Assembly: GCA_017438305.1 (NCBI GenBank)
Contig: JAFRVX010000106.1
Coordinates: 1-40,495, forward strand
Source of the DNA: Lachnospiraceae bacterium
GTDB lineage: Bacteria; Bacillota; Clostridia; Lachnospirales; Lachnospiraceae
Direction: 5' to 3'
DNA length: 40,495 nucleotides
Notes under the pieces: model-generated
Database searches by the model: none
What the model saw: the letters and a program-made list of their open reading frames with translations, nothing else
Told to the model about the DNA's origin: nothing
Shown here: positions 8,657 through 30,961 of the stretch, in pieces
Layout: each line of letters begins with the position of its first letter
How positions within the stretch are numbered: position 1 is the first letter of the stretch
Program-made: the position numbers and the translations under genes

Positions 8657-9454
8657 TTACTCCTCGCCGGGGTAGATCACGCTGTGGCGGATGGGTAACC
8701 ATTCCTTGATGGCTTTCCTTAAGGTCAGATCCCAGAAGTCCCACTCATGGCCGTAGCCGGGGATCTCTTCAAAGTACACGTCGTAGCCCTGCTCTGTCAG
8801 GAAATCCCGGGCGAATTTAGCGCCTTCCAGGGCGAAGTCATCGCCGCCGCAGGTGACGAAGTATTTCGGTACCTTTTTGCCGGACTTGATGTTTTCGATA
8901 GCCAGGTTCCGAAGATTTTCCGGTCCCTTGGGATCCCGCGCGGGCATGGCCGGAGCGCCTGCCCTGGGACGGGGATCATTCAGGCCGCCGCCGGAGGACA
9001 TGATCAGTGCTGCCGCGTAGTTTTCCGGATAGTTGATGGAGATCTTGCCGGTGCCGCCGCCGCCCATGGAAAGGCCGGCGATGAAATTGTCTTCCCGTTT
9101 GTCGGAGAGGGGGAACAGCGCCCGGAGGACCTTGGGCAGTTCTTCTGCCACGAAGGTCCGGTATTTGGCCCGGCCCGAGGGATCATCGTCGTAGCTGGCG
9201 TTGTAATCCGCCGGCATGATGACCGCCAGTTTGTTGTCATCCGCGTAACGGGTGATGTTTGAGAAGTTTACGTAATCGCTGTCGTCGCCGGAGCCGCCGT
9301 GCAGAAGCCAGAGGACCTGGTATTTCATACCCGGGACATAGACTTCTTCCCGTCCGGCCAGACGATCCGCGAAGCTGTAGCTGGGAAGGCAGATGGTAAC
9401 ATTGGTCTGCATACCCAGAGCCTGTGACAAAAAGTTCATTTTGATAACTGCCAT
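8657..9454 (-). CDS. Esterase family protein (esterase D / feruloyl-acetyl esterase-like)
   Basis: A 265-residue alpha/beta-hydrolase of the Esterase (PF00756-type) family, which includes feruloyl and acetyl-xylan esterases, S-formylglutathione hydrolases and mycolyl transferases. Visible: oxyanion loop WLLHGGSGDDSD (about residues 49-60), nucleophile S129 in GLSMGG, Asp near CGGDDF and catalytic His in GYGHEWDFWD near the C-terminus. No signal peptide. AAAGGAG lies seven bases before the ATG. A close paralogue is at 25332, and a larger relative lies upstream on the same strand. With GH43 and GH3 nearby, trimming of acylated hemicellulose fragments is plausible, but unproven. Confidence 0.9.
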   Translation of the reverse strand: MAVIKMNFLSQALGMQTNVTICLPSYSFADRLAGREEVYVPGMKYQVLWLLHGGSGDDSDYVNFSNITRYADDNKLAVIMPADYNASYDDDPSGRAKYRTFVAEELPKVLRALFPLSDKREDNFIAGLSMGGGGTGKISINYPENYAAALIMSSGGGLNDPRPRAGAPAMPARDPKGPENLRNLAIENIKSGKKVPKYFVTCGGDDFALEGAKFARDFLTEQGYDVYFEEIPGYGHEWDFWDLTLRKAIKEWLPIRHSVIYPGEE

Positions 9455-9760
9455 AAGAATTCTCCTTTCATCTTAATGGTTCTTCGGGTTCAGTGTTGTG
9501 AGAGCACAGAATGTATCGCAGGAGCGCTGAAGGCGCTGCAGAAGCGCAGAACGCACAGCAGAAGTGCAGAGCGCCGCAGTGTCCGTTGCAGAATGTGATA
9601 TCTCGTCCGTTCATCACAACATTATATTTGATATGATTATATCAAACTGCCGGGAGTCCGTCAATTTAAAACACAGCGGCCGTCCTGCAAAACACAGCAG
9701 CTGTTCTCCCTCATTCAAAACACAGCGGCCGCTCTCATTCATAAGGGCAGCCGCTGCTGT
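9455..9760. other. Intergenic region with two short tandem arrays
   Basis: 9538-9576 holds two near-identical 20-bp units beginning GCAGAAG. 9668-9726 holds three exact copies of AAAACACAGC (9668, 9689, 9717). The latter lie just beyond the 3' end of the larger esterase gene and run into its terminator. Confidence 0.6.
9717..9756 (-). terminator. Probable terminator of the larger esterase gene
   Basis: On the minus strand, a CAGCGGC arm (9750-9756) pairs with GCCGCTG (9723-9729), followed by TGTTTTG. The stem is seven perfect base pairs with a 20-base loop, so it is moderate rather than strong. Confidence 0.55.
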
Positions 9761-10942
9761 TTACAGGGTATCTGTCACTTCCACCTCGATCTCCCGGTTC
9801 TGACCGAAGAGATATCGTACGTAATGGGGCAGTTCCTTACGGACAAAGACGCCGAAGGGCCGGCCGTGGACCTGGTCTTCTCCCAGGCTGTCGTAAAGCT
9901 GGGGACAGATGATGGCGATGTGTTCCTGCTCCGCAATCTCTTCCAGATCTTTCTTCCGCTGCCAGTAGGTGAAGTCGTCGTCTGCGGGATGGATCAGGAT
10001 CTTCACTTTTTTCCAGGGATCGTCCTTCGTTTCCTTCGGGAAGATGAATTCGCAGTCCAGGGAGCCGTGGGCGGCCATGGATTCCAGATCCGCCCGGACG
10101 TCCAGGCCCGGTACGGCTGACAGGCCGATGGAGGCGGGAAGTTCAAGGCCAGGCGCTTCACGGAACTGAAGCTTCTTAAGTCCCGTCCATTCCAGGAAAT
10201 GCTGAAGGGCAGCGTCCCAGAATTCCCAGTTGTGGGTGCCGGGGCGTTTCACATAGGTGATGTCGTAGCCGATATCCGTCAGGTTCTTATAACAGGCTTC
10301 GTTTAAGGGGAAGGTAAAGTCCTCCGTGCCGCATTCCTGATAGAAGCGGGGCATCGGTTTTTTGTTCTCCGCGATATCTCTGGCGATGGCCAGGGAGTCG
10401 TTGGGCCATTTTGACATGTATTCCAGGCTGCCGAAGCATTCATAGAAATCCTTGTCTGTGGAGGGATCGCCGTTATAGAACTGCTTGATGGTATCCACCA
10501 TGTCCACGGGACTGGAGAAGGAGCCGATGGCCCCGAAATAATCGTTCAGCACCAGGCCGAGCTTAAAGCCCATGTATCCGCCCAGGGAAAGGCCGGCAAC
10601 AAAATGATTCTCCCGGCCCGGGGCGATGGGGAAGACGTGGTCGATGAGCGGCACCAGTTCCTGGGAAAGATAGCTGAAATACTTCTTCCCATAATACATG
10701 TCCATGCCGAAGGAGGACCAGGTGGAGGTCATGACGGTGATCAGGCCGTATTCATCGGCGTAGCGTTCGGCGGAGGAATTTCTGAGCCAGGCGCTCCGGT
10801 CATCGGTATTTCCGTGGGTCAGATAAAGCACCGGAAAGGTGCGGGAAGCGTCATCCGTATTGACCAGTTTAGGGACGGTAACATTGACGGAAACGCGGCT
10901 TTTCAGGTTTTCTGAATAGAAGGTAAGGGTATAGATTCCCAT
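9761..10942 (-). CDS. Esterase family protein with an extra C-terminal half-domain
   Basis: A 393-residue protein. The N-terminal about 265 residues form a complete Esterase-family alpha/beta-hydrolase: LTHGNTDDRSAW (41-52), nucleophile S119 in GLSLGG, Asp in CGTEDF and His in GTHNWEFWD. Residues about 300-393 resemble the N-terminal half of the same fold again: ILIHPADDDFTYW matches LYLTHGNTDDRSAW, and ELPHYVRYLFG matches ELVPLIDHVFP. The copy ends before a nucleophile elbow, so it cannot be catalytic by itself. Start at 10942 is set by AAAGGAG; an upstream ATG at 10978 has none. It lies 59 bp downstream of the aminotransferase gene, probably one operon. Confidence 0.85.
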   Translation of the reverse strand: MGIYTLTFYSENLKSRVSVNVTVPKLVNTDDASRTFPVLYLTHGNTDDRSAWLRNSSAERYADEYGLITVMTSTWSSFGMDMYYGKKYFSYLSQELVPLIDHVFPIAPGRENHFVAGLSLGGYMGFKLGLVLNDYFGAIGSFSSPVDMVDTIKQFYNGDPSTDKDFYECFGSLEYMSKWPNDSLAIARDIAENKKPMPRFYQECGTEDFTFPLNEACYKNLTDIGYDITYVKRPGTHNWEFWDAALQHFLEWTGLKKLQFREAPGLELPASIGLSAVPGLDVRADLESMAAHGSLDCEFIFPKETKDDPWKKVKILIHPADDDFTYWQRKKDLEEIAEQEHIAIICPQLYDSLGEDQVHGRPFGVFVRKELPHYVRYLFGQNREIEVEVTDTL

Positions 10943-28035: not shown

Positions 28036-28262
28036 CAAGGCTTCCCCTCTGGGGAAGCTGTCACCGCAGGTGACTGATGAGGCCCTCAAGGCTTCCCCTC
28101 TGGTACAAGTAACCCCAAGGCTTCCCCTCTGGGGAAGCTGTCTGCCGCAGGCAGACTGATGAGGCCCTCATCCACCACCTTCGGTGGTCCCCCTTCCCCA
28201 AAGGGGAAGGCTTGCCTCATCCGTCATGCTTCGCATGACACCTTCCCCAGAGGGGAAGGCTT
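28036..28262. repeat. Cluster of five REP-like paired-hairpin elements
   Basis: Each full element is a conserved hairpin (CTTCCCC/GGGGAAG) followed by a second hairpin with variable stem and GNA loop, then GATGAGG. Plus orientation: 28037-28080, a truncated one at 28088-28103, and 28117-28163. Minus orientation: about 28165-28214 and 28213-28262. Second stems: GTCACC/GGTGAC, GTCTGCC/GGCAGAC, ACCACC/GGTGGT, GTCATGC/GCATGAC. Similar elements are common in gut Clostridia, from memory. The first begins right after the stop codon of the fusion gene; that stop region (CAA-R-TAACCC) is itself duplicated before the third element. Confidence 0.85.
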
Positions 28263-28268
28263 ATAGGA

Positions 28269-28302
28269 CGGCAGCTGATCCGGCTGCCGCCTATTTTCTT
28301 CT
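28269..28302 (+). terminator. Intrinsic terminator
   Basis: CGGCAGC (28269-28275) pairs with GCTGCCG (28283-28289) around a 7-base loop, followed by a T-rich run. It ends the fusion-gene transcript. Confidence 0.7.
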
Positions 28303-28330
28303 TGCCAAATGGTAAATTATCCATTATAGT
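28302..28330 (+). promoter_or_regulatory. Promoter of the 28383 gene
   Basis: TTGCCA (28302-28307), 17-bp spacer, TATAGT (28325-28330), about 50 bp before the ATG. Confidence 0.65.
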
Positions 28331-28382: not shown

Positions 28383-29009
28383 ATGGGATTATTGGATAAA
28401 CTGTTCAGTAAGGAAGCTCAGAAGAAAATGAATGAGCTGGTTAAGGATGCGACGAAAAAGATCAATGACACCATAGATGAACTGAAGAGCGGTATTGAGG
28501 AGGGCAAGAAGGGGACCAGCGCGGACTCCATTAAAGAGTCCCTGAACGGCCAGGCTCAGGAGCTGCAGGAGACTGCGGACGCAGCCGGGGAAGCCCTGGA
28601 AGCCGGCTTTAAAGAGCCCCAGGCAGTCGTATTAAATCACAAACGGAATGAGCAGTTTTCCTTAAGGGAAGATGCCGTTCCCAGTGATATTGAGGATAAA
28701 GGCAGCAATGCCTACTTCCGGGAGCTTATCGAAAAGAATCTGCCGGGAGTTTCCGTTCAGGAAGAGGTTCCGCTTGCGGAGATCACTTCAGAAGTTCCTG
28801 CTAAAAACAGGAATATCAGCCTGCTTCTGACATCCGCCGGCGGCAAAAAACTGGCGGTCATGCTGGTCGCCAAAAACCAGTACCGGCTGGCAGCGGTAGT
28901 GAATACCATGAATATCTGTGAAGATCAGGGAATTCCGGCGATCCGCTTTATGCAGGAATTTGAAAACGCTCCGGCCTATGTGGTGGGACGTATTGCGGCG
29001 TATTTATAA
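28383..29009 (+). CDS. Hypothetical coiled-coil protein with a C-terminal alpha/beta domain
   Basis: A 208-residue protein I cannot name. Residues about 1-85 are charged and helical, probably coiled coil (KEAQKKMNELVKDATKKIND, then QAQELQETADAAGEALEAG). Residues about 110-208 look like a compact alpha/beta domain: AYFRELIEKNLPGV, then strand NISLLLTSAGGKKLAVMLV, then IPAIRFMQEFENAPAYVVGR. That order recalls restriction-endonuclease-like folds, but I see no clear catalytic D/E-x-K. AAAGGAG seven bases before ATG. It has its own promoter and lies 225 bp before the reverse-transcriptase gene; whether the two are linked is open. Confidence 0.75.
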   Translation: MGLLDKLFSKEAQKKMNELVKDATKKINDTIDELKSGIEEGKKGTSADSIKESLNGQAQELQETADAAGEALEAGFKEPQAVVLNHKRNEQFSLREDAVPSDIEDKGSNAYFRELIEKNLPGVSVQEEVPLAEITSEVPAKNRNISLLLTSAGGKKLAVMLVAKNQYRLAAVVNTMNICEDQGIPAIRFMQEFENAPAYVVGRIAAYL

Positions 29010-29060: not shown

Positions 29061-29188
29061 GCTGAAGGAACGCTTTATGCCCTGTGAAGAACCCAGCGGA
29101 AACGATAAGTCACAGACCGTTTTGCAGGAGCGGTTTCCGTACGGTTCCGTAAAACCGGATACCGGTTTTCAAACCCGATTCCTTCAGC
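29061..29188 (+). ncRNA. Candidate structured RNA bounded by a 10-bp inverted repeat, upstream of the RT
   Basis: GCTGAAGGAA (29061-29070) and TTCCTTCAGC (29179-29188) are perfect complements enclosing 108 nt. Inside: CTGTGA/TCACAG (29082-29087 with 29110-29115), and AAAACCGG-ATA-CCGGTTTT (29151-29169), an 8-bp hairpin. A rival pairing CGGTTT/AAACCG (29131-29136 with 29152-29157) excludes that hairpin. The region is non-coding and ends 47 nt before the RT start. An RNA bracketed by a closing inverted repeat next to an RT resembles retron and defence-RT layouts. Function and expression are inference. Confidence 0.45.
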
Positions 29189-29192
29189 TTTT

Positions 29193-29220
29193 GCCCCGCC
29201 TTTTTGGCGGGGCCTTTCTG
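29193..29220 (+). terminator. GC-rich terminator-like hairpin just before the RT start
   Basis: GCCCCGCC (29193-29200), TTTTT loop, GGCGGGGC (29206-29213), then CTTTCTG. The stem is strong and the U-run poor. It ends 21 nt before the RT ATG, so it may terminate the upstream transcript, or partly shut off the RT. Confidence 0.65.
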
Positions 29221-29234
29221 ATAAAAACCTGAAC

Positions 29235-30455
29235 ATGGGTATTCTTGATCAACTGAAAAAAGAAGAAACCTGGGAGGCTTATTTTACCTGTAAAACGGAA
29301 AAGCAGCATCTTTCCCGGAAAGAGACGGAAGCTTTAAGATCGTTTATTGATGAAAAGGCCTGGCTTCCGGTTATGAACAGCCTTGAGACCGGAGCCGGTT
29401 TTTCGGTTCCCGAACTGAAGAAGATCCGGAAAAGCGGCACGGAAAAGAAACGAACGGTTTTTCTGTTCCCGCCGGAAGAAAACTATGTTCTGAAGCTGAT
29501 GACGTGGCTTCTGGAAAGGCAATACGATTCCCTTTTTTCAGAGGACCTGTATTCCTTCCGGATCGGACAGAGCGCGGGAAAGGCCGTCAAGAAACTGATC
29601 CGTGTGCCGGGCATCCGGGAAAGGTATGTCTACAAGGCTGATATCAGCGACTACTTTAACTCGATCCCCATACCCGGCCTGCTTCCCCTTATGGAGAAAA
29701 CTATTTCGGAGGAACCGGAATGCCTGAAGCTTCTTACAGACGTCCTGACAGATCCCCGGGTGCTGGATGAAGGCACGGTCCGGGAAATGGATAAGGGCGT
29801 GATGGCAGGATCGCCGTTTTCCGTTTTCCTGGCCAATCTGTATCTGGACCCTCTGGATAAGGAAATGGAGAAGCATCCGGTGCTGTATGCCCGGTATTCG
29901 GATGATATCATCCTCTTTGCCGAAACCGAAGAACAGCGGGACAGGGAGGCCGCCTTTATCGAAAAGACCATACAGGAAGCGGGACTTCTCTTAAATCCCG
30001 GGAAGGTGGTCAGGACCGGTCCCGGGGAAAAATGGAGCTTTCTGGGCTTTTCCTATGAGAACGGCGCGGTGGATATATCACCGGTTTCCCTGAAAAAGAT
30101 CAAAGACCGGATCCGGCGGCGCGCAAGAGCCATAAAGCGCTGGCAGATCAGGAAAGGCGCTGCGGACGAGCAGGCGGTAAAAGGCCTGATCCGGGCCATG
30201 AACCGCAAGTTTTTTGCGGCAGACAACGAAAATGATCTGACCTGGTGCCGCTGGTACTTTCCCCTGATCACCACGGATACAAGCCTCCATGAGATCGATG
30301 CCTGTCTCCAGTACTGGATCCGGGCAGTGTATTCGGGGCATCATCGGAAAAAGAACTATGAACTGCCCTATGAAAGACTGAAGGACTGGGGCTATGAAAG
30401 CCTGGTGCACGCCTGGTATCTGTTTAAGAAAGGGAAGGAATTGCCTTCTGTATGA
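29235..30455 (+). CDS. Stand-alone reverse transcriptase (RNA-directed DNA polymerase)
   Basis: A 406-residue RT. Finger/palm motifs run in order: KKRTVFLFPPEEN (71-83), LYSFR (105-109), motif A YKADISDYFNS (133-143, D136), motif B-like KGVMAGSPFSVFLANLYL (187-204), catalytic YSDD (221-224) and FLGFSY (269-274). A basic RRRARAIKRW (294-303) and a thumb-like C-terminus (WCRWYFPLITTDTSLHEID, then NYELPYERLKDWGYESLV) follow. No HNH endonuclease or clear maturase domain, and no retron NAxxH/VTG signature, so it is group-II-like or of an unassigned class. No ribosome site precedes ATG 29235. A structured stretch and a strong hairpin lie directly upstream. Function unknown; a defence role is only analogy. 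Confidence 0.88.
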   Translation: MGILDQLKKEETWEAYFTCKTEKQHLSRKETEALRSFIDEKAWLPVMNSLETGAGFSVPELKKIRKSGTEKKRTVFLFPPEENYVLKLMTWLLERQYDSLFSEDLYSFRIGQSAGKAVKKLIRVPGIRERYVYKADISDYFNSIPIPGLLPLMEKTISEEPECLKLLTDVLTDPRVLDEGTVREMDKGVMAGSPFSVFLANLYLDPLDKEMEKHPVLYARYSDDIILFAETEEQRDREAAFIEKTIQEAGLLLNPGKVVRTGPGEKWSFLGFSYENGAVDISPVSLKKIKDRIRRRARAIKRWQIRKGAADEQAVKGLIRAMNRKFFAADNENDLTWCRWYFPLITTDTSLHEIDACLQYWIRAVYSGHHRKKNYELPYERLKDWGYESLVHAWYLFKKGKELPSV

Positions 30456-30547: not shown

Positions 30548-30961
30548 ATGGCAGATCTTAACGACAACTTAAATGACACTCTGAATGACACGCTGAACCA
30601 GCTGACGAATACAGCGGATACGACGGACGTCTATGATCCCGCGGATATCGAATCCAATAAGATCATGGCGCTTTTATCCTATATCGGCATCCTGGTGCTG
30701 ATCCCGCTGTTTTCGTCACGGCAGTCACCGTTCACCCGTTTCCACGTGAACCAGGGCGCGGTCTTATGTGTTCTTGAGATCATCGTGTGGGCCGTATTCG
30801 GCTTTCTTGGCGCGATCCCTGTTATCGGCCTGATCTTCCGGATCATCCGGTACGTGCTGCAGGCCATATGCCTGGTCTTTGCGGTCCTCGGCATTTATAA
30901 TGTTGTCCAGGGGAAAGCAAAGGAGCTTCCGTTTATCGGCGGCATCCGGCTGGTAAAGTAA
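30548..30961 (+). CDS. DUF4870/Tic20-like small membrane protein
   Basis: A 137-residue membrane protein. The N-terminal about 35 residues are soluble and repetitive (DLNDNLNDTLNDTLNQLTNT). The core has about three hydrophobic segments (about 41-58, 73-95, 98-122), with the family-like FTRFHVNQGAVL between the first two and ending in the basic LPFIGGIRLVK. This matches the DUF4870/Tic20-like family of small bacterial membrane proteins of unknown function. GGAAGGAG precedes the ATG. It lies 93 bp after the RT gene on the same strand. Members of this family occur in many unrelated contexts, so a link to the RT is weak. Confidence 0.8.
   Translation: MADLNDNLNDTLNDTLNQLTNTADTTDVYDPADIESNKIMALLSYIGILVLIPLFSSRQSPFTRFHVNQGAVLCVLEIIVWAVFGFLGAIPVIGLIFRIIRYVLQAICLVFAVLGIYNVVQGKAKELPFIGGIRLVK

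Follow-up and report, generated by a model that had tools for sequence, protein, structure and literature searches.

A UG26 reverse transcriptase, an RT-5 RNA with a pseudoknot and a partner gene as a probable three-part cassette in a Lachnospiraceae bacterium

Overview of the cassette

The contig JAFRVX010000106.1 of a Lachnospiraceae bacterium (assembly GCA_017438305.1), analyzed over its 40,495 nucleotides and referred to below as the window, encodes a reverse transcriptase (RT) of the UG26 group that is preceded by a structured non-coding RNA (ncRNA) and, further upstream, by the gene of a partner protein. We favor, with moderate confidence, the view that the three elements constitute one tripartite cassette. 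Judged by sequence comparison, the RNA is conserved, pseudoknotted, closed by a helix P1 and linked to UG26 RTs, with the partner gene in turn linked to both RNA and RT. The cassette probably serves to make DNA from its RNA, and its likely type is a DRT-like ribonucleoprotein of the class 2 kind, with an RT, a scaffold/template RNA and a nucleic-acid-binding partner. The elements are:

28383–29009, forward strand: partner gene, 208 aa, PADLOC RTasCOG2852; helical N-terminus, low-confidence linker and C-terminal PD-(D/E)XK-like domain (about residues 102–208)
29061–29188, forward strand: structured ncRNA; Rfam RT-5 core at 29077–29181 plus closing helix P1; also defined by our own model R1
29235–30455, forward strand: UG26 reverse transcriptase, 406 aa; PADLOC RT_UG26 and Pfam RVT_1; YSDD at 29895–29906

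Each component is already catalogued singly, the RT group as UG26 in PADLOC, the RNA as RT-5 in Rfam and the partner as RTasCOG2852 in PADLOC. What is assembled here as new is the joined system, the full RNA fold and the pseudoknot, which we did not find described. Searches of openly licensed PubMed Central papers yielded none that joined UG26, RT-5 and RTasCOG2852 and no product or function for the system, but the founding papers on the UG groups and on RT-5 may mention the association. These are Mestre 2022 and Weinberg 2017, respectively. RT-5 was reportedly described as an RT-linked motif. A preliminary description of this locus had proposed an RT-ncRNA system of an undescribed class. The pairing of a non-retron RT with an adjoining structured RNA stands, whereas the lack of any description does not, given the three catalogue entries. 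The partner gene and the pseudoknot had not been mentioned. With the present assignment RT-5, a catalogued RNA of unknown role, gains an enzyme and a partner gene, and its fold is extended by two strongly covarying elements, the closing helix and the pseudoknot. An uncharacterized RT group becomes a defined three-part system of which the RNA boundaries, the likely template site and the partner can be tested together. The carriers among the sampled loci are mostly gut and rumen bacteria.

Structure and extent of the RNA

The Rfam family RT-5 (RF03026) matched positions 29077–29181 with 53.5 bits (gathering threshold 45.7) over model positions 1–104 of 104, and no other Rfam family reached its gathering threshold in the window. 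The cassette has the RT group of PADLOC RT_UG26 and the RNA family of RT-5, with the difference that the structure line of the Rfam model includes neither P1 nor the pseudoknot. We then built a covariance model, R1, from 55 trimmed RNAs including P1. R1 hit the window at exactly 29061–29188 with 64.3 bits, which is not an independent discovery because the window RNA belonged to the training set. The seed was selected from 88 unique RNAs; 26 were excluded (P1 detection off or overlong, long inserts, runs of N) and 7 more for similarity. All 33 excluded RNAs were later searched with R1, those of loci L032 and L034 through their duplicate records L104 and L084. The elements of the fold in the window, together with the terminator that follows it, are:

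29061–29070, forward strand: 5′ strand of closing helix P1, pairing with 29179–29188; absent from the Rfam model
29072–29080, forward strand: small hairpin P2, two pairs in the window and longer in some relatives
29081–29086, forward strand: pseudoknot strand 1 (CCUGUG), pairing with 29123–29128
29089–29147, forward strand: P3 (29089–29093 with 29143–29147, 29096–29103 with 29133–29140, apical 29118–29121 with 29129–29132)
29123–29128, forward strand: pseudoknot strand 2 (UGCAGG), within the P3 apical loop
29151–29169, forward strand: hairpin P4, 8 bp, from an inverted-repeat search and a model helix; window register shifted in the model alignment
29169–29178, forward strand: P4-P1 joint, candidate template suggested by its position, with a near-invariant U-Y-A-A at 29169–29172
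29179–29188, forward strand: 3′ strand of P1, pairing with 29061–29070
29193–29218, forward strand: intrinsic terminator between the RNA and the RT gene, an 8-bp G+C stem (29193–29213) with a T-rich tail

Covariation was evaluated in two alignments. In A4, which has 91 rows from 90 distinct RNAs fitted to R1, 94.5% of the cells were standard pairs and 43 of the 46 pairs changed on both sides, values that none of 500 shuffles reached. Sliding the pairing partner by a single column lowered the paired fraction to 39.5–43.6%. The sequence-only alignment A3 (55 rows, chosen partly by P1) gave 87.4% paired cells and changes on both sides in 42 of 46 pairs. For P1 itself such changes occurred in all 12 model pairs of A4 and in 11 of 12 in A3. 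The pseudoknot, which lies outside the structure of R1, is formed across the RNAs by a 5′ CCUGYG strand and the P3 apical loop. Taken alone it was paired in 99.3% of the cells, with changes on both sides in 5 of its 6 pairs (0/500 shuffles) and with 21 such cells as compared to 4.2 in shuffled data. Furthermore, the window segment 29053–29218, terminator included, folded with a z score of −4.59, and none of 200 shuffled sequences was equally stable. On this comparative evidence we conclude that the RNA structure is real and not due to chance.

The window RNA forms 40 of the 46 model pairs as standard pairs. The remaining six are one bulge position in P1, one pair in P2 and four pairs in P4, whose perfect 8-bp hairpin is shifted in register in the model alignment. 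All ten pairs of the perfect inverted repeat with which the preliminary description had bounded the RNA are present; this repeat corresponds to P1, and the 8-bp hairpin was located at 29151–29158/29162–29169. The internal stem mentioned there is probably 29089–29103/29133–29147, and for a rival pairing of the hairpin's left arm one candidate was found, 29147–29158 with 29395–29406, which is 92% complementary. From one sequence alone, a chance origin of the inverted repeat, within an otherwise ordinary intergenic region, could not be dismissed. The Rfam match, the exact R1 interval, the covariation in 90 distinct RNAs and the co-occurrence of RNA and RT in whole genomes now exclude it in practice, leaving it a vanishing probability.

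The most conserved unpaired positions of the model are a G-U at 29149–29150 (98%) and the U-Y-A-A behind P4. In the latter the first position is U in 97% of the RNAs, the second U (79%) or C (12%), and both A's are conserved in 99%. Base 29169 is at the same time the first U of this element and the last base of P4.

Association of RNA, RT and partner gene

Of 295 genomes of the order, 14 contained RF03026. In each of these, a tblastn search with the window RT located the start of a UG26 RT no more than about 330 bases behind the RNA. Among ten UG26 loci that were found through the RT alone, eight carried RF03026 above the cut-off and two (L001 and L006) lacked it. Another 80 UG26 loci, a few of them near-duplicates, came from a scan of the genome_contigs set and are the best 80 of 551. 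In total 104 loci, with that of the window, were examined by nhmmer, and 97 had the RNA upstream on the same strand, representing 88 distinct cores. The preliminary description had named unrelated upstream sequences without covariation at homologous RTs as the outcome that would speak against it; the opposite was found. R1 matched 91 of 100 sources. The nine that it missed were the distant RT loci L012, L014, L024 and L030 and the UG26 loci L001, L006, L059, L082 and L121.

Among 246 whole genomes of the order, the R1 RNA occurred in 11, all of them among the 12 genomes with a UG26 RT (E ≤ 1e-80). In the twelfth, G144, the UG26 match spans only profile positions 1–304. Since part of the R1 training set came from these genomes, this result tests the specificity of the association and not its reach. 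In a set sampled at the level of the phylum, RNA and RT were present in the same 2 of 299 genomes. The window genome has one copy. The partner gene was detected at 67 of 80 UG26 loci, always together with the RNA, and neighbor clustering identified it as the only widely recurrent neighbor. This clustering lost seven loci due to a greedy open reading frame filter that dropped the RT frame, but the later profile search covers them.

The RNA could be only a cis-acting leader for RT expression, with P1 and a U-tract forming an attenuator and with the RT attaching to its own leader. The short distance to the RT start (median 24 nt in 73 loci), the terminator between RNA and RT gene in the window and a run of at least 4 U within 14 nt behind P1 in 73 of 91 RNAs fit such a role. 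However, the distance can reach 582 nt, and a pseudoknot combined with a fold of 127 positions goes beyond a simple attenuator. Systems of the groups UG17, UG28 and UG3 use such an RNA as template, according to PMC12632851, PMC12483538 and PMC13174585. Moreover, at locus L099 the partner gene and the RNA (9353–10122) lie about 4 kb from the UG26 RT, with no RT in the next 1.1 kb examined, and this displaced pair argues that the RNA can act in trans. We regard a pure leader function as quite improbable. The UG26 RT of L099 itself has no RNA in front.

At L001, L006, L059 and L121 the UG26 RT was accompanied by neither RNA nor partner in the examined stretch, and at L001 a tRNA gene lies directly upstream of the RT. 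A metagenome-assembled genome labeled Propionibacteriaceae (L124) has RNA, RT and partner, the RNA being missed by nhmmer and detected by R1. Another one labeled Bacteroidaceae (L113) has RNA and RT, and no partner was found at this locus. These two cases suggest transfer across phyla or a binning error.

Classification of the reverse transcriptase

The 406-residue open reading frame and the YSDD at residues 221–224 were as previously described. The protein matched PADLOC RT_UG26 with an E value of 2.7e-150 (498.6 bits, profile positions 1–397 of 398); the second-best PADLOC profile reached 1.1e-32 and 111.5 bits. The YSDD catalytic motif is intact in the window RT and in 94 of 94 relatives. 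Behind a generic RT profile, the closest groups were UG4, UG27 and UG17 (DRT10), followed by Drt9 (E 4.3e-25) and Drt3a; the Drt2 profile matched as well, and an RT-Cas1 profile scored in the range of the nearest UG groups. These profile ranks suggest that UG26 belongs to the class 2 UG RTs. A sequence search of the PDB returned group II intron RTs at the top (E 1.1e-33), along with a Cas6-RT-Cas1 protein. The best UG-type match was 9ioa (499 residues, E 7.1e-23), which we take to be DRT9, and DRT2, retron RTs, Drt3a and telomerase RT followed lower. Two tyrosines near the C-terminus are conserved in 98% and 100% of 94 UG26 RTs (positions 356 and 378 of the L095 protein), the second corresponding to Y379 of the window RT. 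A regular expression directed at the tail, for C-terminal priming tyrosines of the DRT9 kind, caught other places, and its result was not used.

A structured RNA with a closing inverted repeat next to an RT also recalls a retron, in which the RNA would be an msr-msd and the RT would make branched msDNA, and the PDB search returned retron RTs with weaker matches (best E 4.3e-13). Retron RTs have the motifs NAxxH and VTG. However, these occurred in just 2 and 3 of 94 UG26 RTs, respectively, and neither was found in the window protein. The NCBIfam profile retron_St85 reached 50.9 bits against a cut-off of 235, as compared to 498.6 bits for UG26, and no Rfam retron RNA family matched at the window. 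A retron is therefore highly improbable.

Properties of the partner protein

The RTasCOG2852 profile matched 48 of 51 partners, with a best E value of 2.4e-84; the match of the window partner was weak (2.7e-6). The C-terminal domain has the alpha-beta-beta-beta-alpha-beta core of the PD-(D/E)XK fold, which it shares with Vsr-like and COG2852 nucleases, the latter appearing in the PADLOC name. Unlike these nucleases, the 51 partners have no conserved catalytic set: among the columns of the C-terminal domain, acidic residues reach 70% in only two and 100% in none, and no conserved lysine closely follows the glutamate. At a column with E in 36 of 51 partners, the window partner has M. A PDB sequence search with the partner gave a single match at E 0.39, which was ignored.

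The N-terminal part of the partner varies and can be a helix, a zinc ribbon or, in one case, a TIR domain. The latter occurs at locus L117 (2160–4787), where an 876-aa partner carries it (residues 158–281) ahead of the conserved C-terminal domain. At this locus, another member of the protein cluster is encoded three genes downstream of the RT, and a TIR-like stretch was recognized in it by eye. Partner start codons were picked by a script favoring MG[LF]-like starts, which biases the count of the N-terminal motif. An amphipathic membrane helix at the N-terminus was not supported, with a hydrophobic moment above that of shuffled sequences in just 9 of 51 partners.

Comparison with DRT systems and proposed mechanism

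Class 2 UG and DRT systems combine a UG-type RT with a conserved adjacent ncRNA, and this combination was found here. The RTs of DRT9 and DRT10 bind the ncRNA, template on it and use one of their own residues for priming (PMC12483538, PMC12632851); the DRT10 template is placed just downstream of a stem-loop (PMC12632851). The UG26 cassette resembles DRT10 in having three parts and a large closed RNA with smaller stem-loops, the DRT10 ncRNA being 137 nt long (PMC12632851), and UG17, the RT group of DRT10, is among those nearest to the window RT. The partner differs, a PD-(D/E)XK-like protein here and a SLATT protein in DRT10. So does the gene order, with the RNA between partner and RT here and upstream of the SLATT gene in DRT10. 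DRT9 (UG28) is similar in its RT and in its RNA, which serves as both scaffold and template and has a conserved stretch rich in uridines (PMC12483538). The conserved open stretch observed here is U-Y-A-A and not poly-U, and the UG26 cassette has, unlike DRT9, a partner gene. The window RNA has a pseudoknot, a word absent from the main text of PMC12483538. DRT3a and DRT2 are further class 2 UG RTs with an ncRNA template (PMC13174585, PMC13213688), with profiles matching the window RT. Their similarity is lower, and neither the downstream ncRNA nor the second RT of DRT3 was seen here.

By analogy with DRT9 and DRT10, the UG26 RNA may act as scaffold and template. The partner gene and the RNA would be on one transcript ending behind the RNA; trimming would then shorten the RNA to about 130 nt, and the RT would bind it. 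That RT and RNA form a ribonucleoprotein is very probable, and it is likely, on the same analogy, that the RNA is the template. The copied stretch would most likely be the P4-P1 joint at 29169–29178, which would match the template loop downstream of a stem-loop in DRT10, although we assign the template to this joint tentatively. The degenerate nuclease domain of the partner may read the complementary DNA (cDNA) or the loaded RT-RNA complex; for the partner as reader of the product we see even chances. Its variable N-terminal part would be the effector, probably in phage defense.

Co-transcription of partner and RNA is preferred because a promoter of the RNA's own was not supported (3 of 91 RNAs as compared to 1 in one shuffled set). 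One candidate upstream site was noted:

28302–28330, forward strand: promoter-like site TTGCCA-17-TATAGT ahead of the partner gene, 10/12 matches in a consensus scan

A common transcript of partner and RNA might begin here. The scan gave 2 sites as compared to a shuffled mean of 2.0, which is not above chance.

A more specific mechanism would be that UG26 is a telomerase-like RT which copies the P4-P1 joint repeatedly, with pseudoknot and closing helix holding the RNA in place and the dead nuclease domain with swappable effectors sensing the product. Telomerase RNA cores have a pseudoknot and a closing helix. For the window the template would be UUCAAACCCGA at 29168–29178 and the cDNA repeat TCGGGTTTGAA, and the UUC-to-UUC spacing was 11 nt in 7 of 10 RNAs of the UUCAA type. 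Over all 91 RNAs, however, a telomerase-like A-B-A′ repeat, the pattern of DRT10, was not above the control, the RNA's own segment recurring downstream in 54 of 91 RNAs as compared to 55.7% with segments of other RNAs, and both UUC copies are located in part within P4 and P1. We consider this mechanism unlikely. If a dead nuclease domain with swappable effectors does sense cDNA, another signaling route for bacterial RT products would be added.

Evidence on a role in defense

Whether the cassette acts against phages appears evenly balanced. Several observations lean against a role in defense. The flanks, of which 92 of the 276 listed neighbor proteins were scanned, mostly contained genes other than defense genes, and the Pfam matches were mainly to ordinary metabolism. 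In these 92 proteins 74 PADLOC families were detected at 1e-15, each matching one protein only, and they may represent a few proteins hit by many families. The single matches included a DpdF-like helicase, a type II restriction enzyme and methyltransferase, and PsyrT-like and GajB-like helicases. No close relative of the RT was present on viral contigs (18 relatives, 22–29% identity), on phages (20 records; 23–29% among the 8 matches listed) or on plasmids (4969 records, all below 60%; 25–28% among the 8 matches listed). UG26 RTs have been reported in cold-seep viruses (PMC10504277).

The RT-RNA-partner complex could be real but produce cDNA that is used in a cell function or in stress signaling. 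Besides the metabolic neighbors and the lack of close relatives on phages, plasmids and viral contigs, the frequency of UG26 within the genus agrees with this, the RT being found at E ≤ 1e-140 in 8 of 14 other genomes searched, in one of them over positions 90–396 only. In contrast, the distribution is patchy at a wider range (12/246 and 2/299 genomes) and no other neighbors are fixed, consistent with gain and loss of the cassette. The nearest RT groups include defense systems, and one partner carries a TIR domain. A function outside defense is for these reasons rather unlikely.

Flanking DNA

A small protein is encoded at 30548–30961, 92 bases behind the RT, with likely membrane segments recognized by eye. 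It had no match in Pfam, PADLOC or NCBIfam and was not recurrent in the other loci. Just upstream of the cassette, at 28037–28262, a dispersed palindromic repeat (GGCTTCCCCTCTGGGGAAGCTGTC) is present in two direct copies and one inverted copy. The repeat has 49 matches in its own genome with at most 2 mismatches, and 0 were obtained with the reversed control.
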